From IMG/VR virus record IMGVR_UViG_3300031518_000060, positions 1 through 25,946 of that record: a stretch of 25,946 nucleotides of DNA. One strand, 5' to 3'. Origin of the DNA: a virus. Positions 9,405 to 25,416 of this stretch are shown here, in pieces. The translations under genes were made by a program, and so were the position numbers. Positions within the stretch are counted from its first letter, which is position 1, and each line of letters starts with the position of its first letter. The notes beneath the pieces were generated by a model that saw only the letters and a list, made by a program, of their open reading frames with translations, ran no database searches and had not been told where the DNA came from.

Positions 9405-9862
9405 TGCGGTCGATGGCGGACATGTTGCCGGAAATCATGAGTCGCCTGAGCCAGCGGTTGCGGCGGCCGTACTATCGCTCGGCGCGGTCTCTGGTCGGCC
9501 TCGATGAACACGGACTGCCGCGCTATCGGGTGATCTGCCCTTGGTGCTTCGGTTCTGGCGGCACCGACTGCGCGTGTCGCGGGTCGGTGCTAGTCTGTCC
9601 TGACTGCCGCGGGGCGCGGATCGTCCGCCAGGAAAGCGCAGACGGATCGTTCCTGCCGCCGGTGCCGTGCGCGACCTGCACGGACTGGTATCGCCGTGCA
9701 CCGAACGAACGCTATGACAAGAACAGTCCGTATCGGACGTATGCGTATGCGATTGACCAGTATCAGGAGACACAGGCGATCGCGCGGTATCTGGCGAACT
9801 ATCCTGAGGTTCTCGATATCTTGCAGGCGCTCGGTGCGGCAATCGATGAGTGGACGGGGTAG
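9404..9862 (+). CDS. Cys-rich zinc-binding protein
   Basis: A 152-residue protein with four Cys pairs: CPWC (45-48), CAC (56-58), CPDC (65-68) and CATC (89-92). The first three resemble a DnaJ-type central zinc domain (CxxCxGxG) in shortened form, so two zinc ions are likely. The N-terminal 30 residues are basic (RLSQRLRRPYYRSAR), the C-terminal 50 are helical and Tyr-rich. The ATG at 9404 overlaps the preceding stop (TGATG); a GTG at 9401 is also possible. It lies in the replication operon between the replication protein and the ParB fusion. A DNA- or protein-binding accessory role is plausible. No family name can be given. Confidence 0.7.
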   Translation: MRSMADMLPEIMSRLSQRLRRPYYRSARSLVGLDEHGLPRYRVICPWCFGSGGTDCACRGSVLVCPDCRGARIVRQESADGSFLPPVPCATCTDWYRRAPNERYDKNSPYRTYAYAIDQYQETQAIARYLANYPEVLDILQALGAAIDEWTG

Positions 9863-9864
9863 AC

Positions 9865-11184
9865 ATGAGCCGTGATGCTGTCATCGCTTTGGGTGACCGC
9901 ACGTTTCGTCTTCCCTACATTGATCTCTTGCGGCCACTGAGCGACCAGGAATACGAGTCTCTGCTGAACAGCATTGCCGAGCACGGTATCGTGAACCCGA
10001 TCGTCGTGACCGAAGACGGCGTCGTGTTGGACGGCTACCACCGCCTGCGTGCTGCCGTCGAGCTCGGCCTAGCGCCGTCGTCCATTCCAGTCGTCGTCGT
10101 GCCGTTCCTGGACGAACAGTCCAGGGTCGCGATGGCCGTCGCGCTGAATGCGAACCGGCGACAACTGAAGGACGATGACCTGAAGCGAGTCGTCCTGGTG
10201 CTGCGCCAGCGCATGCGGCTGTCGTTTCGGCGGATCGCTGAGATCACGGGAATCCCGAAATCGACGGTCGCGCTCTGGTGTCAGGAAGCAGGTCTCGACG
10301 ACGTCGTGGAAACGGTCGTCGGCCGAGACGGGAAGGAATATCCGGCCGACTATGACGACCGCTGGGCTGAGCGCCGGAAAGCTATTTGGCAGATGGCACA
10401 AGAAGGTTTACCGGCTGAAGAAATCGCTCAGAAGTTAGGTATTACAACGCGGACGGTTCTCGCTGACCTGGCACGCGGGCAAGTGGTCATGACGACAGCG
10501 CAACGAGCGCAGTCTGTCGGCGAAGCGCTCGAGCAAGGTGTCTTGCCGCCGTCGCGCATCGCACGAGACAGCGACGTGGTCGGCGCTTTTCGTCGTCAGG
10601 CGCAGCGAGAGGTGGGAAAGCAGGAGGAGCGGTCAGGGACGTGGGAAATCTTCGTCGGCGATCCTGTGCAGCACCTGGCTGCGTTGCCGCCGGAGACGGT
10701 CGACTGCGCGATCGTCGATGCGGTGAGCGAAGAAACGTCACGCATTGTCGGCAACATATACGCACAGCTAGCTCGGGTGGTCGGCGAAGGTGGTTCAGTG
10801 CTGATCCTGACGACACCAGCGCGTCTGCCGGACGTCCTGAATGCTGGCCTTGCGTATCTGCGTTACCGGTGGCTCTTGGTCGCACGCACTGCTGGGGCTA
10901 GTGCGTACGGCGATATCGCGGGCGAATACCTGCCGATCCTGTGGCTTTCGCGCGGACAAGCGGTCGTCGCCGAGCCGCTGGTGGACGTGATCGACTGGCG
11001 TCGCCAGGGATGGTCGTATTTGATCGGCAAGTTAACGCGGCCGGGGATGACGGCCGCGGTGATCGGATCGAGCGTGCCGTATGCGGACGCACTCGTCCGC
11101 CGACACGACCGCGTCTTCCTGTTTTACGTGCACGATGTGGCAGCAGCCGATGCGGTTCGGGCGAAGCTAGGTGGGGCGCGATGA
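9865..11184 (+). CDS. ParB-domain protein fused to a degenerate DNA methyltransferase
   Basis: A 439-residue protein. Residues 10-100 are a ParB/Srx N-terminal domain, with IVNPIVV and the signature LDGYHRLRAA (55-64) and ANRRQL. A helix-turn-helix follows at 115-140 (FRRIAEITGIPKSTVALW) and a second at 175-205 (EEIAQKLGITTRTVLADL). Residues 258-439 follow the plan of a beta-class methyltransferase, but the catalytic DPPY is replaced by DAVS (285-288). The SAM-binding motif, normally DPFxGSGT after a Pro-Gly turn, reads RPGMTAAVIGSS (392-403). The enzyme half is therefore probably inactive and may only bind DNA. ParB-methyltransferase fusions are common in phages; a dead one is less so. ATG 9865 lies three bases past the preceding stop. 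Confidence 0.8.
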   Translation: MSRDAVIALGDRTFRLPYIDLLRPLSDQEYESLLNSIAEHGIVNPIVVTEDGVVLDGYHRLRAAVELGLAPSSIPVVVVPFLDEQSRVAMAVALNANRRQLKDDDLKRVVLVLRQRMRLSFRRIAEITGIPKSTVALWCQEAGLDDVVETVVGRDGKEYPADYDDRWAERRKAIWQMAQEGLPAEEIAQKLGITTRTVLADLARGQVVMTTAQRAQSVGEALEQGVLPPSRIARDSDVVGAFRRQAQREVGKQEERSGTWEIFVGDPVQHLAALPPETVDCAIVDAVSEETSRIVGNIYAQLARVVGEGGSVLILTTPARLPDVLNAGLAYLRYRWLLVARTAGASAYGDIAGEYLPILWLSRGQAVVAEPLVDVIDWRRQGWSYLIGKLTRPGMTAAVIGSSVPYADALVRRHDRVFLFYVHDVAAADAVRAKLGGAR

Positions 11185-11873
11185 GTTGGTTGCACTGGGC
11201 GGTGGCGAACGGTATCCCGGTGACCGATCCCGGCGACCTGGTCGTTGCGGGACGGGCAAGTGTGACGAACTGGATGCTGGTGCGGGTGATCGCAGAAGGA
11301 AAGCGTCCGCACCAGCGTGTGTTGGAATCGCTGCGTTCTTTCGATGAGTTGCTGTCGCGCGCCTGGCGTGCGGACTGGACGTACCGTGGCCTGCACGTCC
11401 TGATGATCAACGGACAGGATATCGCGCAGTCGAGGATATTGTTGCTGGACAACGTGCCGGTCACATTCAACGACTGGGTAAAGTTCCTGAAGTTCGAGCA
11501 ACCTGACGAGTGGTACGAGCGGCGGGCCTGGCCGGTCGAGGAGTCGCTGCGCGTCGACCGCCAGCGGGCAGAGCGTGTACTGAACGTGCTGAGAAAACTA
11601 ACCGAAGAGGCTGGTCTGTCGCTGTCGTATGCGCTGCGGTATCTCGCTGCCCAAGGCCAGCTGCCGAAGCAGTTGGCGGTTGAGATACAGAAGGGGGCGA
11701 ACGACCAGGAGGCGTTACTGCGTATCTGTGCAGCGATCGACGAGCGGCACATCCGGATGGTGCGCGACTTCTTGGAGGACGCCCGCTGGATGGCGTATGC
11801 GCAAAGCGTCGGGATTGATGCATCGGCAGGCAAGATGGCTGAGCGAGTCAAGGGAGAGGAAGGAGGATCGTGA
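11181..11873 (+). CDS. Hypothetical protein with helical C-terminus
   Basis: A 230-residue protein of unknown function. The ATG at 11181 overlaps the stop of the ParB fusion (ATGA); a longer upstream reading is only an open shadow of that gene. The N-terminal 110 residues mix strands and helices (WTYRGLHVLMINGQ and RILLLDNVPVTFNDWVKFLK). The C-terminal half is helical, with YALRYLAAQGQLPKQLAVEIQ and a probable coiled-coil-like end. The segment VDRQRAERVLNVLRKLTEEAG is amphipathic. No catalytic motif or membrane span is visible. It is coupled by overlap on both sides, so it probably works with the ParB fusion or the IS110-like protein that follows. Confidence 0.6.
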   Translation: MSWLHWAVANGIPVTDPGDLVVAGRASVTNWMLVRVIAEGKRPHQRVLESLRSFDELLSRAWRADWTYRGLHVLMINGQDIAQSRILLLDNVPVTFNDWVKFLKFEQPDEWYERRAWPVEESLRVDRQRAERVLNVLRKLTEEAGLSLSYALRYLAAQGQLPKQLAVEIQKGANDQEALLRICAAIDERHIRMVRDFLEDARWMAYAQSVGIDASAGKMAERVKGEEGGS

Positions 11874-12718
11874 TGGTGATCGTCGATGTCCAGGTGGGAG
11901 AGATCCGGCCGCTGGTGGAGCGGATCAGTCAGGATCTCGTCACGGTGGCGGCGGACACGAGCGGTGACGGGATGCGTGTACTGGTTCATCACTACGATTC
12001 GCTTCAGAAGATCCGCATCGCCGCCCACAATGCTGCAGTGGCCTATCGGAAAGACGGCAAACCAGCCGGGTATGCAGAGTGGCTCGCCAAGGAGCTGCAG
12101 AGGCTGGAGAACGGTCTGGTCAAGGTAATGAAGAGTTGGATATCCGAGTATCCGGTTGCCGAATGGGCGCTGCAGCAACGTGGCGTCGGGCCAGTGTCGG
12201 TTGCGACCTTGCTGGCCTATCTCGACGTCGAGAAGTGTCGCACGGCAGGTTCTGTCTGGCGCTACTGTGGACTGGATCCGACTATCGAGTGGAAGAAGGG
12301 CGAGCGGCGTCCGTTCAATGCGAAACTGAAGCGGATGTGCTACCTGCTAGGTGAGATGTTCCGTATGCACCACAAGTCACCGGACTGTTTCTATGGGCAG
12401 GTCTACTTGGCTCGCAAGGAGTATGAGCAGATCAAGAACGAGCGCGGGGAATATGCTGAACAGGCGAGAGCCAAACTGGAACAGCAGGCCAACTGGACAG
12501 CGAACCAGCGGTCGTACTTTGAGCGCGGGATGCTGACGCCAGCGCATATCGACCTGCGAGCGCGACGTTACGCCGTGAAGCTGTTCCTGGCGCACTTTGC
12601 CTGGGTGTATTGGGAAACCGAAAAGGGTGAGCCGTGGCCGCTACCGTATGCGGTGTCCCACCTTGGACACGTCGACGTGATCGCGCCACCAGGCTATACG
12701 CCGCTGGCGCGGGTGTGA
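11873..12718 (+). CDS. IS110-family C-terminal-domain-like protein, copy 1
   Basis: A 281-residue protein whose middle resembles the Transposase_20 domain of IS110 elements: QQRGVGPVSVATLLAYL (101-117), a helix-hairpin-helix with G104 and G106, then WRYCGLDP (129-136) and a basic helix KLKRMCYLLG. The DEDD (RuvC-like) catalytic domain found in IS110 recombinases is absent, and no catalytic Ser follows the GLxP motif. It is therefore unlikely to transpose and more likely binds DNA or RNA. The tail (LRARRYAVKLFLAH, 228-241) is almost identical to that of the paralogue at 15295-16074. ATG 11873 overlaps the preceding stop (TGATG), six bases behind GGAGG. It is followed by a VRR-NUC-like gene, as is its paralogue. 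Confidence 0.65.
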   Translation: MVIVDVQVGEIRPLVERISQDLVTVAADTSGDGMRVLVHHYDSLQKIRIAAHNAAVAYRKDGKPAGYAEWLAKELQRLENGLVKVMKSWISEYPVAEWALQQRGVGPVSVATLLAYLDVEKCRTAGSVWRYCGLDPTIEWKKGERRPFNAKLKRMCYLLGEMFRMHHKSPDCFYGQVYLARKEYEQIKNERGEYAEQARAKLEQQANWTANQRSYFERGMLTPAHIDLRARRYAVKLFLAHFAWVYWETEKGEPWPLPYAVSHLGHVDVIAPPGYTPLARV

Positions 12719-13374: not shown

Positions 13375-13995
13375 ATGACGATCACAGTGCGAACGCCGAT
13401 CGACTTCAAGCCGACGGTCGCCGAATGGAAGGTCTTCGCTGCTCGCATCCGTGGCGTGACGCCGCTTTTGATGAACAACCCGAAGTTCAAGATGCAGAGG
13501 GACGATAAGAAGGCCAAGCGCAAGGAAAAGGAGGTGCTGCCGCCAGAACAAGAAGCCGAACTGGGCCTATATCGCGCTCCGGAGGGTTGGTTGTACTTGG
13601 GGGCTGACCACGTCCGTGAGGCGATGCTGGCGGCTGCCTCGGGATATCGGGTCAACAAGAAGCCGCTGCGGCCGCTGCTGGCGGCGTCGCTGTTCATACT
13701 CGAACCGTTTTTCCCGTTGTTGCGAAACGGTGAGTACTTGACGACGTACGACCGGATCGATATCCGCCGTGCTGTCGTACAAGGTGAAGGGATCCTGCGA
13801 GCACGAGCCCTGATTGAGGTTCCCTGGGAATGTGAGGTTCGCTATCAGTTTGACGCGGCGCTGGCTGACCCTGTCAATTACGTCCAGATGCTGGTGGAAG
13901 CAGGAACGCGGGTCGGCGTGTTGGACTACCGACCGCAGAAAGGCGGCATCTTCGGTCGGTTCGAGGTCATCGAGGCCTGGACGGAGGATTTCTGA
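13375..13995 (+). CDS. Hypothetical phage protein, strand-rich
   Basis: A 206-residue protein that I cannot name. It starts with strands (VFAARIRGVTPLLMNNPKF), followed by a Lys-rich linker (KKAKRKEKE), a segment LGLYRAPEGWLYLGADHV, a helix (REAMLAAASGYRV), a block ending RRAVVQGEGILRARALIEVP, and a C-terminal motif GVLDYRPQKGGIFGRFEVIE with clustered Gly, Arg and Phe. This looks like a conserved family with an alpha/beta, RRM-like plan. A distant relation to RAMP/Cas7-type RNA-binding folds is a thought, not a finding. ATG 13375 is six bases past GGGGGGTG. Its stop overlaps the ParB-like start (TGATG), so the two are co-translated. Confidence 0.65.
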   Translation: MTITVRTPIDFKPTVAEWKVFAARIRGVTPLLMNNPKFKMQRDDKKAKRKEKEVLPPEQEAELGLYRAPEGWLYLGADHVREAMLAAASGYRVNKKPLRPLLAASLFILEPFFPLLRNGEYLTTYDRIDIRRAVVQGEGILRARALIEVPWECEVRYQFDAALADPVNYVQMLVEAGTRVGVLDYRPQKGGIFGRFEVIEAWTEDF

Positions 13996-14678
13996 TGACG
14001 GATCAGCTGACGCGTGTTCCGGCTGTCGAGTTGGTCGAGGACTTGTCGCTCTATCCACGGCTGCAAGTTGACGACTGGTACGTCAGTCGCCTGGCGGAGG
14101 CGCTACGATCGGGGGCGGCATTGCCCCCGATCGTAGCCGACCGGGCCAGCAAGCGGATCGTTGACGGATTCCACCGGCGGCGAGCAGCATTGCGGGCGTT
14201 CGGGCCGACAGCAGAGGTCGATGTGCTGTTCAGGGACTACGCAGATGAGCGAAGCCTCTACCTGGATGCCCTACGGCTGAACGCGCACCACGGCAAGCGT
14301 CTCTCAACGGCAGAAGAAGTCCGCGCAGTGATCCGCGGCCAGGAATTAGGTATCGAGCCGCGCGTCATCGCCGACACGCTGGCGATCCGGGTCGAGAAGC
14401 TGGAAGGTTTGTTAGAGAGGAAGACGGCGCGCGGCACGGCGGAACCGGTCGTCGTCTTGAAGCCAAGCTTTAGCCACTTGGCTGGAGAGAAGTTGACGCG
14501 GGAGCAAGAACTTGCGAACAAGCACAGTGGTGGCCATCAGGCGAGTTTCTATGCACGAATGCTTATCGCGATTATCGAAAGCGGTGCAGTTGACGAAAGT
14601 AACCGGACGCTGATGGAGCGGCTTGCGCGACTGCATGAGTTGTTGACCGAATTTTGGGCTGTGCGACGGGTGGCTTAA
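13995..14678 (+). CDS. ParB-like N-terminal-domain protein
   Basis: A 227-residue protein. Residues 15-110 form a ParB/Srx domain: LRSGAALPPIVADRASKRI, then VDGFHRRRAALRAFG (ParB box II type) and LRLNAHHGKRLS. A helical segment (EEVRAVIRGQELGIEPRVIADTLAI) follows and may be a DNA-binding HTH. The last 80 residues are helical, ending ERLARLHELLTEFWAVRR. It lacks the methyltransferase part of the 9865-11184 protein. The ATG overlaps the preceding stop and follows GGAGG at seven bases. Such proteins in phages can be partition proteins, nucleases or regulators; the sequence does not decide. Its gene contains an unusually perfect hairpin at 14102-14137. Confidence 0.8.
   Translation: MTDQLTRVPAVELVEDLSLYPRLQVDDWYVSRLAEALRSGAALPPIVADRASKRIVDGFHRRRAALRAFGPTAEVDVLFRDYADERSLYLDALRLNAHHGKRLSTAEEVRAVIRGQELGIEPRVIADTLAIRVEKLEGLLERKTARGTAEPVVVLKPSFSHLAGEKLTREQELANKHSGGHQASFYARMLIAIIESGAVDESNRTLMERLARLHELLTEFWAVRRVA
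14102..14137. promoter_or_regulatory. 15-bp perfect inverted repeat inside the ParB-like gene
   Basis: GCTACGATCGGGGGC (14102-14116) is exactly complementary to 14123-14137, with loop GGCATT. It encodes part of the ParB domain (about residues 37-48). A 15-bp perfect stem inside a gene is unlikely by chance. It might pause translation, be a binding site for ParB, or act as a terminator-like element. Confidence 0.5.
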
Positions 14679-15098: not shown

Positions 15099-15165
15099 GG
15101 CCTGACACGATGGATCTACCATCCTGTTGGCCTGCTTGAATGGGGCAAGCAGAAATGCCGTGATA

Positions 15166-15197
15166 CCAGCGGGTCGATCGACCCGCTGGCCTTTTTG
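15166..15197 (+). terminator. Strong rho-independent terminator
   Basis: A perfect 24-bp palindrome (15166-15189, arms CCAGCGGGTCGA) is followed by CC and TTTTT (15192-15196). It would end rightward transcripts that passed the ParB gene and the pentamer array. Just before it, CTGCTTG (15132-15138) and CAAGCAG (15146-15152) form a smaller hairpin. Together they would give the pentamer-array RNA a defined 3' end. Confidence 0.85.
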
Positions 15198-15208
15198 TTC
15201 ACGAAGCT

Positions 15209-15240
15209 TTGTGGAATCGATCATCCATTTGGTTTACAAT
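15209..15240 (+). promoter_or_regulatory. Possible promoter for the second IS110-like cassette
   Basis: TACAAT at 15235-15240 is a plausible -10 box, about 55 bp upstream of the GTG at 15295. The best -35 (TTGTGG, 15209-15214) is 20 bp away, too long. A promoter is expected here because the terminator at 15166 cuts the gene off from upstream transcription, but the boxes are weak. Confidence 0.3.
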
Positions 15241-15294
15241 CGCATTGACAACAGGCGAAGACGCCGATCCCGTATCGTCCATGGGAGAACAGGT

Positions 15295-16074
15295 GTGGAT
15301 CCGATCGCACAGGCGCTCGTGGACGACCTAACCGAAGACGCTGAGCTCGGCCGGGAACACGCTCACCAGCTGGTTCGCTTCTACTTGCACGCCCAGAAGC
15401 TGCGTGTTGCAGCGAACAATCGGGCCAAGGCGCTGGAGCGATCCGGGCGGCCGAACCGGACACCGGTTGCGGTAGCGGAACGGTTGTTTGGACTCGAGCG
15501 ATCGATCGCGCAGGCGCTGGGTAGCTGGGTACGCAGTCACCCTGCTGGCCAGTGGATGCTCCGTCAGCATGGTGTCGGACCAGTTCTCGCTGCCGCGTTA
15601 CTGGCAATACTGCTGCGTGGGCCGATACCGGAAAGGGTCAGTTCGTGGTGGGCCTATGCTGGTCTCGCACCGGATCGCGTGCACGAGCGCGGGCGTCCGC
15701 GGACATGGAATGCGACACTGAAGGTATTCTGTTACCGCTTGGCTGATTCGTTCGTCCGCTTCCACGACGATCCGAAATGTTATTACGGCCAGGTTTATGC
15801 CCAAAGGAAGGCGCTCGAACAAGAGCGCAACGAGCGTGGGGAATACCAGTCTGTCGCGAAAAAGACACTGGAGACACGCGATATCCGCGATCCCGAGACG
15901 AGAGGCTGGTACGAAAAGGGGATGTTGCCGCCTGGCCGCATCGAGTTGCGTGCGCGACGGTATGCTGTAAAGCTGTTCCTGGCTCACCTGCACCATATCT
16001 GCTACGAAGCAGCGTATGGCAAGCCGCCACCGGATCCCTATCCGATACCGCCGCCACTGCTCGAGGAGGGGTGA
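15295..16074 (+). CDS. IS110-family C-terminal-domain-like protein, copy 2
   Basis: A 259-residue paralogue of the 11873-12718 protein. Shared parts are the helix-hairpin-helix QHGVGPVLAAALLAIL (91-106), WWAYAGLAPD (118-127), a basic helix, YYGQVYAQRKALEQERNERGEY (163-184) and LRARRYAVKLFLAH (218-231). As in copy 1, no DEDD domain and no catalytic Ser after GLAP are seen, and no inverted repeats flank it, so it is not a mobile element. GTG 15295 is seven bases behind GGGAG; an upstream open extension lacks a site. It lies directly downstream of the pentamer array and its terminator, and is followed with no gap by an intact VRR-NUC gene. The two products are probably partners. Confidence 0.65.
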   Translation: MDPIAQALVDDLTEDAELGREHAHQLVRFYLHAQKLRVAANNRAKALERSGRPNRTPVAVAERLFGLERSIAQALGSWVRSHPAGQWMLRQHGVGPVLAAALLAILLRGPIPERVSSWWAYAGLAPDRVHERGRPRTWNATLKVFCYRLADSFVRFHDDPKCYYGQVYAQRKALEQERNERGEYQSVAKKTLETRDIRDPETRGWYEKGMLPPGRIELRARRYAVKLFLAHLHHICYEAAYGKPPPDPYPIPPPLLEEG

Positions 16075-17016: not shown

Positions 17017-17550
17017 GTGGCGGCAGTCAGGTCTGAGCGCTATCTGGCTCGCAAACAGCTCGCTGCTCAGGTCGTACAACTGCGCCTGTCCGGTCATTCC
17101 TACGACGAGATCGCGCAGTATCTCGGCTTGTCCAAGCGGCGTGTCCAGCGGATCATCGAGCGGGAACTGAGCCGGTCTTTCCGGGAGCCGACTGAATTGC
17201 TGCTGCAGATGGAGCTTGACCGCTTGGACGCTCTCCAGCGCGCGTACTGGGACGCAGCGATCGCTGGAGACGGCGAAGCGGCCGACCGTGTATTGCGCAT
17301 CATGGATCGGCGTGCTCGCTACCTGGGCCTTGACCGGCAGGACACTGTCCAGGAAGACCTGGGTAAAGCTGTCCTCAAGCTCGTGACGCGCCTCCAGGAG
17401 CTGGCTGGCGGAGAACCGGCACCGTCGCCGCCATTACCCGAGCCGATCGATGCACAGTATCGCATCGTGACGGAAGACAACGGTGGCTGTGCAGTTAACG
17501 AGACGACAGTTGATGCAGGAACTGGTACGAGCACTGGAACTGACGGATGA
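17017..17550 (+). CDS. Terminase small subunit (probable)
   Basis: A 177-residue protein in the terminase small-subunit position. Residues 20-55 form a helix-turn-helix (QLRLSGHSYDEIAQYLGLSK, then RRVQRIIERE), the usual DNA-recognition part. The middle is a long helical region (LLLQMELDRLDALQRAYWDAA, RVLRIMDRRARYLGLD), which fits the oligomerising core. The C-terminal 40 residues are Pro-, Thr- and Gly-rich and likely disordered. GTG 17017 is used; the ribosome binding site is poor because the terminator hairpin lies just upstream. The next gene starts inside its end with a 68-bp overlap. Its product binds the packaging site and regulates the large subunit. Position and HTH support the call. 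Confidence 0.75.
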   Translation: MAAVRSERYLARKQLAAQVVQLRLSGHSYDEIAQYLGLSKRRVQRIIERELSRSFREPTELLLQMELDRLDALQRAYWDAAIAGDGEAADRVLRIMDRRARYLGLDRQDTVQEDLGKAVLKLVTRLQELAGGEPAPSPPLPEPIDAQYRIVTEDNGGCAVNETTVDAGTGTSTGTDG

Positions 17551-18823
17551 CCCCGTCAAGTTCGCTCGTGCCTGGCTTTCCGTCGAGCCCCATGCGGGAC
17601 AGCAGCGCTGGCTGCTGGCCGAACCGCGGCCGACAGCGGTGTTGGTCACTGGCCGCCGGTGGGGGAAAAGCACAGTCGCCGCCATCCAGCTTCTCTACAA
17701 CGCACTCAAGCAACCCGGATCACAGCAGTGCATCGTCAGCATCACGCTCGACCAAGCGCTGATCGTGTTCTCGCAGGTGGAAGAGTTCGTCCACCGCAAT
17801 CCTGCGATCGAGCTCTTCGTCGAGCAGTGGAAGCAGTCGCCGTTCCCGTACCTGAAGTTCAAGAACGGGTCGGCGATCATGGTGCGGACGGGTGCGCGCG
17901 AAGGGATGTATCTGCGCGGACATAAGTTTCATCGGGTCGTGGTCGATGAAGCGGATTACCTGTCGGAATCGCTCATTACGGAAGCCGTGCGGATGACGCT
18001 GGCTGACGTTGGGGGTCAGCTCGTGATGACGACGACACCGCGCGCGCTGCGTGGCTACGTCTACCGGATGCTGCAACTGGGCTTGCAGGGCGATCCGATG
18101 GTCTACGCCCAGATCGGCACGACGTTCGAAAACCCACACGTCGACCATGCCTACATCCGGTCGATCTACGACCAGATGCCGACTTCAGCCTGGATGCGTG
18201 AGATCGAAGGTCAGTACGTCGAAGACGCCGGGTCGGTCTTCCGCTGGCAGGATATCCAGGCGGCCTACGAAGACTGTGGCTGGCTACTGCCGGAGGAGCC
18301 GCGGGAAGACCGCCTGTACGTCCAGGGTGTTGACCCGGCCAAGCAGAACGACCATACCGTGCACGTGATCCTGGACGTGACCGAACGGCCGTTCCGCGTC
18401 GTGCTGTTCGAGCGGTACCAACGGCGCCCCTGGCCAGCGATCGGTGAGCGGGTACGCGAACTGCACCAGCGCTACCACTGCCGCCTGACGCTCTTCGATG
18501 CGACCGGTGTCGGTGGGGCGGTGCTCGACGAGATCGGTGACGTAGCGCGACCGTTCGTGTTTACGGGGAAGTCCAAGGTCGAGCTGATCAGTCGGTTGCA
18601 GGTCGCGCTGGAACGGCGCGAAATCCGTTTCCCGTTCATCCGCGAACTGGTCGACGAGCTGCAGGCGTACACCTACCAAGACAGTCGCTTGTCGACCGAT
18701 GCGGTGATGGCGCTCGCGCTGGCCGTGCGCGCAGCGACACAGACGGTGCAGTCTGGGCCGATCATCCGGGCGGTAGCGTTGTCGAGGAGCAGGTCGCGTG
18801 TCATGGTGGAGCCGCTTCTTTAA
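17483..18823 (+). CDS. terL: Terminase large subunit
   Basis: A 446-residue packaging motor and nuclease. ATPase motifs: Walker A TGRRWGKST (56-64), Walker B VVVDEAD (152-158, catalytic Glu 156) and motif III TTTP (183-186). The C-terminal RNase H-like nuclease shows its acidic residues in GVDPAK (D284), LFDATGVG (D339) and TDAVMALALA (D406). Length is normal for terminases. The GTG at 17483 sits six bases after GGAAG. An internal ATG at 17513 is possible but would remove only ten residues. It overlaps the small-subunit gene by 68 bp and the portal gene by 26 bp. It drives DNA into proheads and cuts concatemers. Confidence 0.95.
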   Translation: MAVQLTRRQLMQELVRALELTDDPVKFARAWLSVEPHAGQQRWLLAEPRPTAVLVTGRRWGKSTVAAIQLLYNALKQPGSQQCIVSITLDQALIVFSQVEEFVHRNPAIELFVEQWKQSPFPYLKFKNGSAIMVRTGAREGMYLRGHKFHRVVVDEADYLSESLITEAVRMTLADVGGQLVMTTTPRALRGYVYRMLQLGLQGDPMVYAQIGTTFENPHVDHAYIRSIYDQMPTSAWMREIEGQYVEDAGSVFRWQDIQAAYEDCGWLLPEEPREDRLYVQGVDPAKQNDHTVHVILDVTERPFRVVLFERYQRRPWPAIGERVRELHQRYHCRLTLFDATGVGGAVLDEIGDVARPFVFTGKSKVELISRLQVALERREIRFPFIRELVDELQAYTYQDSRLSTDAVMALALAVRAATQTVQSGPIIRAVALSRSRSRVMVEPLL

Positions 18824-20222
18824 GCGACGGCGAGAAGGCCATGCGGTGATCCAGCGTGTGGCCGTCGGCCACGGTACCCCGCCCAGCCGTCAGGTCGCAG
18901 ACCCGTTCGAGGAGCTGTACTCGCTCGGTCGAGCCATCGAGCCACCGTACGATCCGGAGAGCTTGGCGGAACTCGCGGAGATGAACGAAGTCCATGCGGC
19001 GGCGCTGGATGCTGTGGCGGCCGATGCTGTCGGCCGCGGCTGGACGTTCGTACCACGTGTTAGCGCGCCTGACGAGCAGGCTAGAACCGACGTTGAGCTG
19101 TTCCTCGAGCACGTCAATCCCAATTACACATTCTCCGAGTTGCTCTATCAGGCTGTGTGGGAACTGCGGGCGATCGGCTGGTCCGCGTGGGAAGTCGTCC
19201 GGTCGGATGACGGTAGCATTGGTGCGATCTACCCGCTACCGGCACACACGCTGCGCCTGACGCGCGACCCGAACATCTTCGTGCAGCACCGCGGCGGCGT
19301 GTTCCGCTATTTCAAGCTGTTCGGTGCGCCCTTTGAATTGGACGGCAAGACCGGACAGGTGGTCGATTACACTGACGATCCAGCGAGCGAGGTCATCCTG
19401 TTCAGTCGCTACCATGGACGGACGCGCTACGGCGTCCCCAGTTGGGTAGCGTGCATCCCGTCGATCGTCGAATACAACGCGATCCGGGACTACAGTGTGG
19501 CCTTCTTTGACTCGTCCGGTGCAGTCGGCCGGATCGTGCACCTGTCCGCACCAGCATCGGTGAACCTACAGGACTACGTCGACCAGATCGAAGTGGCGCT
19601 GCAAGAAGCAGTCGGCAAGCACCGCAAGACGCTGGTGATCGGGATGCCGGACACGGTGCAGTTCCGTGTCGAAAAGATCGGACCGGACGTGCAAGAAGCG
19701 TCCTTCCTGAAGCGCCGGGAAGACCTGATGAAGGCGATCCTGATGGCGCACCAGGTGCCGCCGTACCGCGTCGCCTTGGCCGTGACCAACACCTTCGGTG
19801 GCTCGACGGCCCGCGAGATGATGCGGGCCTACCGCTGGGGCGTGATCGAGCCGTTGCAGACGGTGTTGGAAGACCGCCTGAACAAGACGCTGTTCGGCCC
19901 TTATGGGTTGGGCCTGGTCTTGCGCGGCTGGTACTGGCGCCTGGAAGACCTGGATATTCAAGAGACGGAACTTGATCTGGCGATTGCGCGAACTGGTGTC
20001 GACCGCATGATCTTGACGCCAAACGAAGCGCGTGCCCTCCTCGGATTCCGTCCAGCCGAGCATCCGGCTATGGATCAGTTCTACTTCCAGGGCAAGCCAG
20101 TTGCATCCGGTGAAGTGCCGACCCCTGGTGCGGCGATCAGTGCAGAGACGGAACGCACTGATGTCCCGATCGCGAACGTGCATTTCGGGTTGCGGGGAAC
20201 GAGGCGATGGAACCCGTCTTGA
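18798..20222 (+). CDS. Portal protein
   Basis: A 474-residue portal protein, the twelve-fold ring through which DNA enters the head. It lies in the portal position with a family-typical arrangement: N-terminal basic helix (WWSRFFKRRRE), then strand-rich wing parts (TFVPRVSAPDEQ, YTFSELLYQAVWELRAIGWSAWEVV), the segment RYHGRTRYGVPSWVACIPSI, and the helical stem region with LKRREDLMKAILMAHQVPPYRVAL followed by FGGSTAREMMRAY and a long helix. These features match the DUF935/PBSX-like portal group. The start is GTG 18798 within the terminase gene end (26-bp overlap). The last 16 bases overlap the next gene. Confidence 0.9.
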   Translation: MSWWSRFFKRRREGHAVIQRVAVGHGTPPSRQVADPFEELYSLGRAIEPPYDPESLAELAEMNEVHAAALDAVAADAVGRGWTFVPRVSAPDEQARTDVELFLEHVNPNYTFSELLYQAVWELRAIGWSAWEVVRSDDGSIGAIYPLPAHTLRLTRDPNIFVQHRGGVFRYFKLFGAPFELDGKTGQVVDYTDDPASEVILFSRYHGRTRYGVPSWVACIPSIVEYNAIRDYSVAFFDSSGAVGRIVHLSAPASVNLQDYVDQIEVALQEAVGKHRKTLVIGMPDTVQFRVEKIGPDVQEASFLKRREDLMKAILMAHQVPPYRVALAVTNTFGGSTAREMMRAYRWGVIEPLQTVLEDRLNKTLFGPYGLGLVLRGWYWRLEDLDIQETELDLAIARTGVDRMILTPNEARALLGFRPAEHPAMDQFYFQGKPVASGEVPTPGAAISAETERTDVPIANVHFGLRGTRRWNPS

Positions 20223-23200
20223 ACGTTTCACCTGACGATATCGCGTCGCCGCGGGACGTCCAGAAGCTGTCCGACGAGGAATTGCTGCTGCTTCACCTGC
20301 GGCTGCATCAGTGGGATGCGACGCTGCGCGAAAAGGGTGTGGCACGCGAGTACCGGACGATCAACCGGCACGTGTGGGTCGTCGAAGAGATGCGACGACG
20401 TGGGATGTCGCACAACGAGCACGACGAGCTCGACCGCGATAGCCGTCCATTCCTGGACAAGGCAGCTGACCTGTCGTGGTTGGAACGGCTGCTGGATCAG
20501 GCTGGCGATGCTGTCTTGGTTCCGCATTATGTATCGGTCGTTGGTTCGGCGGTGTTTTCCGATGACCCGCACGACATCGACTTGCTGGTTCGGGAAGATC
20601 CCAATGTAGCCCATCAGGGCTGGCGCGAGAGCGTCTTGTTGCTGGCGCGCAAGGCTTTGGATCCGGAAAAGACCGGCAAGCAGCTACACCTGCTGTTCAA
20701 CCCACAGGGTCCACACCTGGCCGATGGCCAAGCGTACGTGCCGCTCTTCGACCTGGTTCTGCGGCCGCACCGTCCACTGGAGCCGGTCAACTGTTCAGAA
20801 CTTCGCCCGCTGATGCGGTACCCCGTCCAGAAACCTGCCATGGTGGGGTCGACCGACTTCTTCTCCAGCGGTGAGGCCTGGGAACGCTGGGCGGAAAAGG
20901 CCGTGTCGGAAGGTGGCTTCGTCTACGCGAGTCCGAAGGTGGATGGGTTCCGCACGATCCTGTCGCGCAGCGGCGATGACGTGCGCGCCTGGCTCGAGGA
21001 CACACAGGAATCGCTGAATGGCCTTCTGGCGCAGATCGCACGTGAGCTGCCGGACGGCACGACAGTTGAAGGTGAACTGACTGTCCTGTATGGGGACAAG
21101 TGGTTGGCGCGACCGCAGATTCCTTCATTCTTGCATGGCAAGATCGACGGTGAACCATACGTGTTCCTTTACGACCTAACTGTGTGGCAAGGCGAAGACG
21201 TGCACGACTGGCCGTTTTCGGAGCGGCTAGACCTGCTGCAGTCGATCGATTCGCCGCACCTGGTCGTTTTGCCACAGGTTCCTGTCCGTTCTCGCGAAGG
21301 CCTGGAAAGTGCCGCAGACATCTTGCTTGCCTGGACGTTCCGCAACGACGGCCCGCCGATCGAGGGTGTTGTCTTGCGCCGGGCCGATGCACCGTACGTT
21401 TTCGGGGCGACGTCCACGATGGTGAAGTTCAAGGTGTACTTAGAACTGAAAGTCAAGGTCGTCGCGGTCGATCGGACGAAGAACGGCTGGGTGTACACCG
21501 GCGCTTTGCGTGGGGCGGACGGGCAGGACGTCGTGCTCGGCAAGACGTTCGTCAGTGACGAGAAGCTGGCTGACGTCGGCGATACACTGAACGTCCGCGT
21601 CGAAGAGCTGGTCGTGGACGATGAAGGGCGCATCTCATGGGGCAAGCCGACGCCGCTCGGTGTTGACCGGACGAGACCGGCCTATACCGTGGAGCAAGCG
21701 CTGGACATGGCTGAACGGTCAGGGACGCTGAAGCGCTACGTCGTGACCAAGCAAGAAGAAGACATCGTTCAAGTGTTGGATCCGCCACTGACTGGCTATT
21801 TCTCGGTGTTCGGTAACCTAGGTCAAATACGAGACAAGCTCGTGCCGTTGATCCTCAAGAAAGATATCAAGCGGATCGTTGAGCCTTTCTGCGGACGCGG
21901 CGAAGCGATTTGGATGGTGCAGGCGCGAGAACATGTCTTGGCAGACATTGATCCCGACATCGTGCGCCTGCACCGCATCTGTCAGAACCTGACGGAAGCC
22001 GATTACGAGCGGCTCAGGAAGTTTCATTGGATAGGCGATCATGAGCACTTTCTGAAGTTGGCCGAAGGGCCAGAACCAGAGGACGACATTGCCTGGTTCT
22101 ATCGGCAGCTGTATTGTCGTCGCTTCGGCTTTCGTTGGCCAGCGAGCAAAGACTTTCGCCATGACGAGAACGGCGTGGTCATGCGTTGGGAGCACCGCGT
22201 GCGCAAGGCGCAAGAGCGCCTGCAGGGAGTAATCATCGAGCAGGCTGACTTCCGCGAGACGATGAAGAAGTACGACGAACCTGGCACGCTGTTCTTCCTT
22301 GACCCACCCTGGCCGCGCCAGGACAAGTACTACCGGTTCGCTGGTGTCAACCCAGCTGACATCGCCGAGGCCATCAGGGGTCTCAAGCATGCTCACGCTT
22401 TCTTGGTGATAGCGGGTTCAGTGGAAGAACTTGCCCCGTTGCGCGAGGCTGGTTTGTATGAGCGCCGGGTCTTGCATGAAGTGCCGACTAGGCATTTCCC
22501 GGGAGCCTTCGGCGCCAATGTACAACCACGCTTTTATGTCCGCGTGTTCGCGACGTACGACCTGAGATCCTTGGCTAAAGAAGACGGAGAAGACGACGAG
22601 CCGCGCAGTGCCGTCGCGCTGAAGCACTGGGAAGAACACTGGCACGAAGCCATGCCACTGTCGGGTGAGGCGTTGCCTTGGGTGTTGCATGCGCATGTGC
22701 GCGGCTTGAGCAAGGAAGAAGCCGAACGGATCACCAAAGGCGAGTGGACGCTGCAGGATGTCGTGCACCAGACGGACCACTCAATTCACTTTGACCTGCG
22801 CCTGGCGACCGACCGCTTCGACGGCTGGTGGGGCATCACGCTGTTCGGTGGATCGATGGAAGAGAACCGCGAACAGCTGCGTCCATTCCAGCTCATGGAG
22901 GATTCGGGCCTTGCGATCCAGTCAGCTCCAAAGCTGTTCGGGCCCTTGAGTTGGCTCGAGGTCGGTGTCGACAGGCCGTTCGTCGTGGGGCCGCGCGGTG
23001 TCGGGTCGACGAGTCGCACCTGGGCAGCGTTCTGGGCAGTCGACCGTGGGACATACAGGTTGGGCTTCGCGCGCGTCCATGCTGTCGAGGTCTTTCTCGA
23101 AGGGAAGGTGCTCGAAGGACGTTTCCTGTGGCAGTACGCACCACTGGGTGAAGGGCGTCGTGAATGGCTGTTCACGCGTCCCGCTGACCAGACGCCCTAC

Positions 23201-23701
23201 GCCGTGACACACGACCGGGATGAGGTCATCCGCGAGTTGCGCCAGAAAGGGCAGCGATATCTCGTATGGCCCAAGGATCCGCAGGATCTGCGCGCCGGAC
23301 ACGAACTGATCGACGTCGCGCAGATCCTGCGGATCGTGCGCCGCGATCCGGAGAAACGCTACACGCTCGCCGTCGCCTACCCGCTCCGCGAGGTCGACTC
23401 GTGGGGAGACGTCATCACCGATCCCGAAGAACTGGAAAAGGCGGCTTGGGAATACATGCGCAAGAGCCGCCGCGTCGGTCTCGACCATGCTCCAGGTACG
23501 GAAGGCGCGGGCACGGTGGTTGAATCGTACATCTACCGCGGGCCGCGCTGGGAAGTAAACGGTGAAGTGATCGAGCCGGGGGACTGGTTGCTGGGGATCG
23601 TCTGGTCTCCGCAGGCCTGGGAGCGGATCAAGCGGGGTGAGAAGATCGGTCTGTCGATCCAGGGCTGGGCGCATCGTCGCAAGCGACGAGAGGAGGTGTA
23701 A
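20207..23701 (+). CDS. Giant fusion: nucleotidyltransferase-like, DNA ligase, adenine methyltransferase, LigD-PE-like, XkdF prohead protease
   Basis: A 1164-residue protein in the prohead-protease slot. Residues 100-190 show a nucleotidyltransferase pattern (GS 113-114, DID 123-125, possible third Asp 182). Residues 238-480 are an ATP-dependent ligase core: nucleophile K244 in KVDGFR, E288/E290 in VEGEL, FLYDL, E386 in EGVVLRR, K407/K409 in VKFK, then an OB fold. Residues 520-785 are a D12-class methyltransferase with EPFCGRGEAIW (559-569) and DPPW (699-702). Residues 820-1000 resemble LigD 3'-phosphoesterase, with HFDLRL (861-866; H861, D863, R865) and RTWAAFWAVDRGTY. Residues 1050-1160 are XkdF: REVDSWGDVIT, H1094, E1106 and S1150 in GLSIQGW. 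ATG 20207 overlaps the portal gene by 16 bp. Protease and ligase/methyltransferase calls are firm, the other two weaker. Confidence 0.88.
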   Translation: MEPVLNVSPDDIASPRDVQKLSDEELLLLHLRLHQWDATLREKGVAREYRTINRHVWVVEEMRRRGMSHNEHDELDRDSRPFLDKAADLSWLERLLDQAGDAVLVPHYVSVVGSAVFSDDPHDIDLLVREDPNVAHQGWRESVLLLARKALDPEKTGKQLHLLFNPQGPHLADGQAYVPLFDLVLRPHRPLEPVNCSELRPLMRYPVQKPAMVGSTDFFSSGEAWERWAEKAVSEGGFVYASPKVDGFRTILSRSGDDVRAWLEDTQESLNGLLAQIARELPDGTTVEGELTVLYGDKWLARPQIPSFLHGKIDGEPYVFLYDLTVWQGEDVHDWPFSERLDLLQSIDSPHLVVLPQVPVRSREGLESAADILLAWTFRNDGPPIEGVVLRRADAPYVFGATSTMVKFKVYLELKVKVVAVDRTKNGWVYTGALRGADGQDVVLGKTFVSDEKLADVGDTLNVRVEELVVDDEGRISWGKPTPLGVDRTRPAYTVEQALDMAERSGTLKRYVVTKQEEDIVQVLDPPLTGYFSVFGNLGQIRDKLVPLILKKDIKRIVEPFCGRGEAIWMVQAREHVLADIDPDIVRLHRICQNLTEADYERLRKFHWIGDHEHFLKLAEGPEPEDDIAWFYRQLYCRRFGFRWPASKDFRHDENGVVMRWEHRVRKAQERLQGVIIEQADFRETMKKYDEPGTLFFLDPPWPRQDKYYRFAGVNPADIAEAIRGLKHAHAFLVIAGSVEELAPLREAGLYERRVLHEVPTRHFPGAFGANVQPRFYVRVFATYDLRSLAKEDGEDDEPRSAVALKHWEEHWHEAMPLSGEALPWVLHAHVRGLSKEEAERITKGEWTLQDVVHQTDHSIHFDLRLATDRFDGWWGITLFGGSMEENREQLRPFQLMEDSGLAIQSAPKLFGPLSWLEVGVDRPFVVGPRGVGSTSRTWAAFWAVDRGTYRLGFARVHAVEVFLEGKVLEGRFLWQYAPLGEGRREWLFTRPADQTPYAVTHDRDEVIRELRQKGQRYLVWPKDPQDLRAGHELIDVAQILRIVRRDPEKRYTLAVAYPLREVDSWGDVITDPEELEKAAWEYMRKSRRVGLDHAPGTEGAGTVVESYIYRGPRWEVNGEVIEPGDWLLGIVWSPQAWERIKRGEKIGLSIQGWAHRRKRREEV

Positions 23702-23703
23702 CC

Positions 23704-24357
23704 GTGGAACGAGAACAGAAGGAGATTTACGAACTGGAGGACATCGAGGTAGACCGGGTCGATGCCGTGGACCGTCCGGCCACTGGTCGGCGTTGGCTGA
23801 TCATGAAGAGTGAGGAAGAAGACGAAAACGCGGCCATCGCCAAGGAGCTCGAAGAGCGCGTGGCGGAGGTTCTGCAGGCTTTGGCCAACGATGCCCAAGG
23901 CCGCGGTGGGCTTCCGCTATCGGAAGAGGCGCTAGCTGCACTGAACCGGCTGGCGACGCTGTATGGCCTGCAGCAGCCGTTCAGCGTTGCACCTGTCGAG
24001 GCCTCGGTCGAAGAGGCGTCTGGACAGAATGCTGAGGCCGAAAGCGTTGCCGAGCAGGCCAGCGAGCAGGCCAGTGAACCGGTTCCGGTCGCAGCAGAAG
24101 CTGACGAGCAGAAGACATCTGCAGACGGGCAGGAAGGGTACGGATATCCGGCACCCTATTACCCGAACCCGGACATCTGGAACGCGATCCTCGAAGAACT
24201 GAAGGCGATCCGCGCACTGCTCGAAAAGGGTGCTGTCGCCAAGTCTCAGCCTAGCCAAGTCGCTAGCCGCCAGCCCGAGCCGGAAGCGCGCGCGCGACAG
24301 CCGCAAGTGCGCCGGTGGGGTGAAGGCTTGTTCGCTGACGTCCTGTTCGGTTCTTGA
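23704..24357 (+). CDS. Scaffold-like protein (prohead protease C-terminal relative)
   Basis: A 217-residue acidic protein directly after the protease gene (GTG at 23704, two bases past the stop). Its N-terminus (VDRVDAVDRPATGRRWLIMK) resembles the segment that in XkdF-type proteins follows the protease and leads to the scaffold. The rest is Glu/Ala-rich and helical, with repeats of EQASEQASE, a Tyr/Pro patch (YGYPAPYYPNP), a coiled-coil-like helix (NAILEELKAIRALLEKG) and a basic C-terminus ending ADVLFGS. Low complexity, acidity and position fit an internal scaffold that the protease removes. Here protease and scaffold are separate genes, possibly because the protease carries the large fusion. 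No database support was available. Confidence 0.7.
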   Translation: MEREQKEIYELEDIEVDRVDAVDRPATGRRWLIMKSEEEDENAAIAKELEERVAEVLQALANDAQGRGGLPLSEEALAALNRLATLYGLQQPFSVAPVEASVEEASGQNAEAESVAEQASEQASEPVPVAAEADEQKTSADGQEGYGYPAPYYPNPDIWNAILEELKAIRALLEKGAVAKSQPSQVASRQPEPEARARQPQVRRWGEGLFADVLFGS

Positions 24358-24441: not shown

Positions 24442-25416
24442 ATGCCGAAGACTGCACGAGAATGGTTGGAGAAGGCGACGTTCACGACCGCTGATCTCGC
24501 GTCGGGTGGTCGACTGTCGCCACAGCAGGTGCGCGAATTCCTGCGGGTGGCGATGGAGTCTGGCGTCATCACCAAGGAAATGCGCTACGAGGACTCGGAC
24601 GCACCGCTGTTCGAGGTTCCGCGCATCTCGCTCAACACGCGCGTGCTGCGGCGCGGCACTGAAGGACAGCGACTTGCTGACGCTGACCGCGTCAAGCCGC
24701 AGACCGGCCTGGTCACGCTGCAGACTGTCCTGCTCAAGGGCGAAGTCCCGTTGACGGACGAAGTCCTGGAGGACAACGTCGAGAAGGAGCGGCTGGCTGA
24801 CACGATCATGGCCATGCTGGCCGAAGCGGTCGGCCGCGATGTCGAGGAGCTGTTCATCAAGGGCGACACGGCGCGAACCGCGTCGGAAGACCAGTATCTC
24901 GACTCGCTCGACGGGATCATCAAGCAGCTGCAGGTCGGCTTGCCGACGGCGCAGAAGATCGATGCGACGGGTATCACTCGCTACGACGACCTCTTCCATG
25001 CCATGCTGTCGGCGCTGCCGCCGCGCTACCGGACGAACGTCTCGCAGTTGCGCTTCTACGTGCCTGTCCGGCACCATGACGGCTATGTACGCGAACTGCG
25101 GGCGCGCGGCACGCGACTGGGTGACGACGCGATCGTCCAGAACATGACGGCCGATCTCGGGTTCGCGGGGATTCCCGTGCGGGCGGTGTCCCTGATGAGC
25201 GGCACGGACACGATCAACAGTGCGAGCGTCGACTACGGCAAGTTCGCGCTGCTGGTCGACCCGCAGAACCTGATCGCTGGTTTCCAGCGCCGGATCCGCG
25301 TTGAGCGCTATCGCGACCCGCGCGAGGGTGTGACGAGCTTCGTCGTCACGCTGCGCTGCGACGTCAAGATCGCCGATCCGGAATTTGGTGTGCTGGCGTA
25401 CAACGTGAACTTGTAA
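24442..25416 (+). CDS. Major capsid protein (HK97 fold, XkdG-like)
   Basis: A 324-residue protein in the major capsid position. The order agrees with XkdG/HK97-type capsids: a helical N-terminal arm (TAREWLEKATFTTADLASGG), a strand and E-loop-like segment (PLFEVPRISLNTRVLRRGTEG), the spine helix (LEDNVEKERLADTIMAMLAE) followed by VGRDVEELFIKGD, a P-domain strand, the A-domain with FYVPVRHHDGYVRELRARG, LGFAGIPVRAVSLM, and a C-terminal strand (VTSFVVTLRCDVKIADPEFG). It follows the protease and scaffold genes. ATG 24442 follows AAAGGAGG. No separate delta domain is obvious, in keeping with the separate scaffold gene. Confidence 0.9.
   Translation: MPKTAREWLEKATFTTADLASGGRLSPQQVREFLRVAMESGVITKEMRYEDSDAPLFEVPRISLNTRVLRRGTEGQRLADADRVKPQTGLVTLQTVLLKGEVPLTDEVLEDNVEKERLADTIMAMLAEAVGRDVEELFIKGDTARTASEDQYLDSLDGIIKQLQVGLPTAQKIDATGITRYDDLFHAMLSALPPRYRTNVSQLRFYVPVRHHDGYVRELRARGTRLGDDAIVQNMTADLGFAGIPVRAVSLMSGTDTINSASVDYGKFALLVDPQNLIAGFQRRIRVERYRDPREGVTSFVVTLRCDVKIADPEFGVLAYNVNL

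Follow-up and report, generated by a model that had tools for sequence, protein, structure and literature searches.

A DNA ligase and a LigD-type phosphoesterase fold fused to a prohead protease in viral head-gene clusters: a possible end-joining kit of the virion

Introduction

Why would a virus fuse DNA-processing enzymes to the protease that matures its head? Early survival and circularisation of linear phage genomes, before phage gene expression, are usually credited to host enzymes, and proteases of the XkdF family carry out head maturation from the inside. An uncultured phage, represented by an IMG/VR virus record of 25,946 bases (the window, by which we mean this whole stretch), carries a gene that joins a ligase to such a protease. 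We investigated whether the fusion is real, what its parts are and what they may do.

Results

The gene lies among the head genes of the window. The features are given below, the domains of the fusion protein from N- to C-terminus.

17483-18823 (+): terminase large subunit, before the portal gene (Terminase_6N 5.7e-12; phrog_2 3e-36)
18798-20222 (+): portal protein (Phage_portal 8.9e-26; phrog_12 1.9e-41), its last 16 nt shared with the fusion gene
20207-23701 (+): fusion gene, ATG start, single open frame of 1164 aa
20207-20476 (+): N-terminal helical domain, LSDEELLxLHxRLHQ...NRHxxVxEEMxRRGxxH, common to L016, L059 and L061
20477-20806 (+): putative pol-beta-type nucleotidyltransferase (NTase), GS...D123xD125...D182
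20912-21433 (+): adenylation domain of a predicted ATP-dependent DNA ligase, nucleophile K244 (nt 20936-20938), from Pfam, a PDB profile and Foldseek
21437-21736 (+): ligase OB domain, from alignment A9, strands in the model and a dN/dS of 0.03
21757-22551 (+): predicted D12-class (Dam-type) adenine-N6 DNA methyltransferase (MTase), in-frame insert of 795 bp with FCGRG and DPPW (MethyltransfD12 1.4e-8)
22670-23206 (+): LigD-phosphoesterase (PE)-superfamily domain with H830, H861, D863 and R865, from hhalign, AlphaFold2 and a structural match
23330-23677 (+): XkdF-type (Peptidase_S78_2) prohead protease with H1094 and S1150 (Pfam 1.2e-14; phrog_3017 1.9e-18)
23704-24357 (+): scaffold-like acidic protein (VDRVDAVDRPATGRRWLIMKS) with a weak N-terminal phrog_3017 match, starting 2 nt after the fusion gene
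24442-25416 (+): major capsid protein (Phage_capsid 1e-11; phrog_1623 4.7e-75)

The original prediction of an uninterrupted 1164-residue frame was borne out, with no internal stop on the + strand, and every motif it had named was found in place: GS..DID at 113-125, K244 in KVDG, VEGEL at 287, EGVVL at 386, VKFK at 406, FCGRG at 561, DPPW at 699, HFDLR at 861-865, H1094 and S1150. Its count of five domains was too low, although the domain reading itself stood: counting the OB fold and the helical N-terminus, the protein comprises about seven units, and the MTase is an optional insert, accessory to the core. Profiles identify the ligase (phrog_114, 2.9e-14), the MTase (phrog_56, 1.2e-19) and the head maturation protease (phrog_3017); profile-profile comparison and an AlphaFold model identify the PE, and motifs alone point to the NTase. 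The protease profile (PF14550, Peptidase_S78_2) covers residues 1042-1157, with the H1094/S1150 dyad intact, and this part is 47-49% identical to the capsid maturation proteases of Sonali and Mufasa8. These two phages also encode portal-NUDIX-MuF fusions of about 1000 aa ahead of a separate XkdF gene (Mufasa8 L004:1497-4499; Sonali L005:854-3841). Elsewhere in the window, two proteins match transposase family phrog_4285 (11870-12718, 1.4e-33; 15127-16074, 5.3e-28), and the early region encodes two ParB-like proteins (9850-11184 and 13995-14678).

We then considered an assembly chimera and rejected it, because the fusion, minus the MTase, is found on independent contigs. Three metagenome contigs (L010-L012), 99.9% identical to one another and 88% identical to the window at the DNA level, encode an 899-aa protein with the domain order of the window minus exactly window positions 21757-22551. 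Together with L002, they reproduce the reading frame of the window at 87-88% DNA identity, and one-frame fusions are seen again in L021, L023, L059 and L060. Between the window and L010, dN/dS (Nei-Gojobori) was 0.055 for the N-terminus, 0.043 for the NTase, 0.123 for the ligase, 0.032 for the OB domain, 0.070 for the PE and 0.064 for XkdF. Every domain common to both is thus under purifying selection (0.03-0.12) and kept as protein. The fusion is real and conserved, and it belongs to a modular family of which we found no description, nor any of a ligase-PE head protein, in the largely open-access literature searched.

The MTase had been predicted from FCGRG and DPPW. Its identity holds: MethyltransfD12 (PF02086) matches residues 543-704 above cut-off (E 1.4e-8), and the FxGxG and DPPY/W motifs together with the family profile point to a D12-class adenine-N6 DNA methyltransferase. 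As a core component it was rejected, being missing from the relatives at 88% DNA identity (L010-L012); the insert (METHYLTRANSFERASE) is an optional part of the fusion. Its GC content (0.567) is lower than that of the adjoining ligase-OB (0.616) and PE (0.621) segments, which would suit gain rather than loss. In more distant relatives a MTase lies after the OB domain (L015), before the PE (L017) or between two PEs (L023); L051 carries two copies at the N-terminus, and L059 has a SAM-binding segment between NTase and ligase that reads as a different MTase class. MTases look to have been acquired repeatedly across the family. The best match of the window MTase within the family is in L023 (94.7 bits); the top Dam of a cultured phage scores 72 bits.

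The ligase, first proposed from KVDGFR, VEGEL, EGVVLRR and VKFK, was recovered by three approaches. Pfam DNA_ligase_A_M (PF01068) matches residues 236-409 at the curated cut-off (E 7.3e-6). A profile built from residues 1-506 and their relatives, run against the PDB, retrieves the archaeal DNA ligase 3rr5 (3.2e-27) and the mycobacterial LigD ligase 1vs0 (3.6e-11), which places the core closer to archaeal and eukaryotic ligases than to LigD. The predicted ligase-OB model is good and has a DNA ligase fold (Foldseek 3gde, 4.6e-17; 3rr5 and other DNA ligases, 1e-14 to 1e-17). With its KxDG nucleophile and motifs III-V, the protein has the sequence features of an ATP-dependent DNA ligase and is predicted to seal strands. 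In a 10-row alignment (A9) the catalytic columns D123, D125, K244, D246, G247, E290, E386 and K407 are invariant. L059 and L023 have KxNG instead of KxDG, and the ligase core is missing from L024 and L054.

The 110 residues ahead of the ligase carry the motif that had suggested an NTase: G[GS]...DxD...[DN] is kept in nearly all of 11 segments, the third Asp being D or N. The motif is there, but the identity is weaker, since the nearest profile matches (NTP_transf_2, DNA_pol_B_palm, terminal transferase) are sub-threshold and residues 75-222, which include this region, model at low confidence (pLDDT <50). We regard the domain as a probable pol-beta-type nucleotidyltransferase.

The riskiest claim was the PE, guessed from HxDxR in a region (residues 800-1040) with no relevant Pfam or NCBIfam match. 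It was confirmed at the level of the fold. A 13-row alignment of the window PE family (A10) matched 17 genuine LigD PE domains (A11), fetched with PF13298 from genomes of the Chloroflexota phylum, with an hhalign probability of 96.4% (E 1e-9). The AlphaFold2 model of residues 779-1041 (mean pLDDT 75, pTM 0.77) gave a PE fold, and its significant Foldseek matches were solely LigD PE structures (3p43, 5.4e-7; 3n9b, 2.2e-6; 3p4h, 8.6e-6; 5dmp, 1.5e-5). On structural re-alignment, the archaeal LigD PEs 3p43 and 3p4h (the latter over 117 residues, 1.9 Å) reached Z 12.4, compared with 4.1 for the first unrelated row. Of the metal site H...HxDxR, H861, D863 and R865 are invariant in the 13 rows and H830 nearly so, with a 24-residue insert between H830 and H861 in the window lineage. 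The His and Tyr of EDHPxxY, equivalent to H84 and Y88 of the Pseudomonas enzyme, are invariant in the 17 LigD PEs; in the window family the His is replaced by Gly or Glu and the Tyr by Trp. By predicted fold and metal-site motif, the domain is therefore a member of the LigD PE superfamily and not a canonical LigD PE, and its chemistry may differ.

To find relatives, we scanned IMG/VR, GTDB contigs and genomes with alignments as guides. With P0001 or P0002 as the single query protein, scans of viral contigs returned one and zero relatives, respectively, while pairwise alignments worked. We count about 18 distinct relatives, mostly uncultured and including the archaeal virus ANMV-1, among which the parts of the kit are shuffled. 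Among 50,697 phage records, the ligase-PE core matched ANMV-1 only. The loci are as follows, where the ASCH-like and PE2 labels are sequence readings with no profile match behind them.

L059, L060: LIG-OB-PE-XkdF, flanked by portal or MuF and scaffold/capsid; with L061 and L062 the closest of these loci (43-61% in PE)
L013: portal, then ASCH-like domain-NTase-LIG-OB-PE
L014: as L013 plus a second PE-like copy, with a divergent portal upstream and a head protease and head protein downstream
L016: portal-MuF, then N-domain-2xNTase-LIG-OB, then PE-PE2-protease-scaffold
L021: portal, then NTase-LIG-OB-PE-PE2-XkdF as one protein of 1360 aa, then capsid
L023: single 1894-aa protein, NTase-PE-MTase-PE2-LIG-OB-XkdF
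L025: Dehalococcoidia MAG; portal, NTase-LIG-OB, PE-PE2-protease/scaffold
L026: Euryarchaeota MAG
L053:4031-7465: ASCH-like domain and metallo-beta-lactamase fold (Lactamase_B_2 1.2e-9) where the NTase would precede the ligase; MAG contig with terminase and portal
L054: NTase-PE-XkdF, without ligase
L015, L017 (identical to L018), L024, L052: further members

Readable neighbours include portal, MuF, protease, scaffold or capsid genes; profile searches of some small contigs and of the upstream genes of L017 and L024 returned no match. The motif of the scaffold-like protein is also found downstream in L023, L024, L059 and L060. The exception is L051:6814-10233, a decayed MTase-MTase-NTase-LIG-OB-PE with two internal stops (TAG, TGA), flanked by chromosomal genes on a chromosome contig of the Chloroflexota phylum. 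Its PE is 43% identical to that of the window, a hint that the host of the window virus belongs to this phylum. The family is rare in the genomes sampled (2/400 in the Chloroflexota phylum, 4/390 in the phylum of L026). Two further observations concern single loci: L060:3951-5768 encodes a MuF-like head protein with an apparent intein (CYSEDTEVLATDGFVRIGDLEIGDEV), and L061:7207-9639 is one 810-aa ORF in which scaffold/protease-like sequence seems joined to capsid-like sequence.

Discussion

We propose that the fusion protein is a head-module polyprotein. Since XkdF works inside the prohead, DNA enzymes covalently linked to it would be carried into the head, where cleavage would free them. Some would remain with the packaged DNA and, at infection, leave alongside it by way of the portal. 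Once in the cell, DNA ends would be tidied by the LigD-PE-like and NTase domains and joined by the ligase, which would circularise or repair the injected genome; the methyltransferase, where present, would protect this genome from restriction by marking it. We put the probability that packaged enzymes are freed by the protease and used on genome ends at entry, to heal, join or mark them, at roughly 0.5; packaging, cleavage, ejection and substrates are what we infer.

Several results speak for packaging and use at entry: the intact protease dyad in the fused frame, the portal gene upstream and scaffold and capsid genes downstream, the kit, variously split and reordered, among head genes of unrelated viruses, MTases at differing positions in several loci, the conserved catalytic residues under a dN/dS of 0.03-0.12, and the PE and ligase folds confirmed in predicted models. 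The phage of L016 encodes another ligase separately, far from the head cluster, so that the head-cluster copy is not its sole ligase, which argues against a replicative role for that copy. The content of the kit (ligase, LigD-type end domain, probable NTase, the metallo-beta-lactamase fold of L053, DNA methyltransferases) also suits DNA ends. Multidomain enzymes carried in heads (PMC5512222) and the use of end joining by phages for circularisation (PMC7719229) provide precedents. Against it stand the replaced LigD PE His and Tyr, the weak identity of the NTase, the lack of a Ku match, KxNG in L059 and L023, and the ligase-less L024 and L054. In ANMV-1, L013, L014 and L061 no XkdF is fused to the ligase-PE protein, so fusion would not be the sole route into the head.

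Unrelated bacterial and archaeal viruses have relatives of the kit at an equivalent position, which makes an end-joining machine in their heads possible. That bacterial and archaeal tailed viruses pack, through fusion to the maturation protease, a Ku-independent machine of NTase, ligase, LigD-type end-healing domain and optional MTase, and that this machine enters the cell together with the genome, whose ends it heals, joins and marks, is a tentative generalisation that we consider less likely than not.

The evidence of fusion and location would serve equally if the enzymes acted during assembly, tethered to the protease in the prohead or near the portal, where they would repair nicks or methylate DNA during packaging before being degraded or expelled with the scaffold. 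Prohead proteases normally destroy the scaffold and themselves, which fits such a fate. However, an assembly role leaves the recurrence of end-processing domains (PE, NTase, the metallo-beta-lactamase fold of L053) unexplained, and a space holding packaged DNA would allow little ligase turnover; we consider it unlikely.

The substrate could also be RNA, with ligase, PE and NTase acting soon after entry to repair tRNAs that host anticodon nucleases have cleaved, or to defuse nucleotide signals. The ligase segment does have a weak RNA_ligase Pfam score (5.5e-5), and Arthrobacter phages carry an RNA-end 2H phosphoesterase-XkdF fusion in the same gene neighbourhood. The family profile nevertheless matches DNA ligases far better (3rr5, 3.2e-27), an OB domain is present and the associated D12 MTase modifies DNA, and RNA repair or counter-defence appears improbable. 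We judge similarly poor the prospects of a loss of catalysis, with the enzyme folds serving as a DNA-binding scaffold or as structural parts on the portal side. The two LigD catalytic positions missing from the PE, KxNG in two relatives and the lack of a ligase core in two others would agree with it, but A9 shows no other change at the catalytic residues of ligase and NTase, and constraint on the domains is strong. Finally, a fusion that arose neutrally by accident of gene order, with no functional tie between its enzymes and protease, is very improbable: modules are separate or partly separate neighbouring genes in L015, L016, L017 and L025, yet the XkdF fusion recurs in the divergent L021, L023, L024, L054, L059 and L060, and wherever the flanking genes can be read the neighbourhood persists.

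If packaging and use at entry are correct, some viruses of bacteria and archaea bring their own ligase and end-processing kit, wired to the capsid protease, and a LigD-like repair system is part of the virion. Virion proteomics can test whether the kit is brought in. Fusion to the capsid protease also suggests a natural way of loading enzymes into capsids, and large proteins annotated, if at all, merely as a ligase gain an identity.

Like bacterial LigD (polymerase, 3'-phosphoesterase, ligase), the window protein has a ligase and a PE-fold domain on a single chain. It differs in having a probable pol-beta-type NTase where LigD has its AEP polymerase (the Pfam and NCBIfam matches of P0001 and P0002 include no AEP or primase family), in its fusion to a prohead protease within a phage head cluster, and in not keeping EDHPxxY. 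The proposed link to LigD-type NHEJ is apt as to the list of parts, but two PE catalytic positions are replaced, and the suggested search for Ku found none across the window and ten related records, possibly fragments. We liken the protein to LigD-type repair enzymes, here set among head proteins, rather than assign it to a LigD-Ku system. End joining is used by phages for genome circularisation (Pitcher et al., 2006, as cited in PMC7719229). There, the mycobacteriophages Omega and Corndog share this use, supplying Ku and borrowing host LigD, whereas the window virus encodes ligase and PE and no Ku was found.

The ANMV-1 protein AJP62006 (KP703175), annotated as ATP-dependent DNA ligase, has the same NTase-ligase-OB-PE order and its gene comes right after the portal gene; it belongs to an archaeal virus, has neither MTase nor XkdF fusion and is about 24-25% identical. 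Polyvalent phage proteins (Iyer et al., 2017) are, in PMC5512222, multidomain enzymes predicted to be packaged and injected, sometimes combining Dam MTase and peptidase and encoded with or fused to portal or MuF. Text searches of that paper found no DNA ligase or LigD-PE, and the peptidase described there is a zincin-like MPTase, not a maturation protease.

Labels of "DNA methyltransferase" or "RNA ligase" on some XkdF families (phrog_1530, phrog_14859, Lactococcus phage 28201 and the 639-base gene of Rhizobium phage RHph_Y1_11) were set aside as no proof of MTase or ligase fusions. Pfam finds XkdF alone in the Lactococcus phage 28201 protein, and 2H with XkdF in the Arthrobacter phage proteins. 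The latter, in Kovu (L006:5251-6384) and Ottawa (L007:3745-4884), bear RNA ligase as their product name, with aldolase class I as a further name among relatives. Although their enzyme is of the 2H fold, RNA-type and without a ligase, they too place a nucleic-acid-end enzyme N-terminal to XkdF, near the portal.
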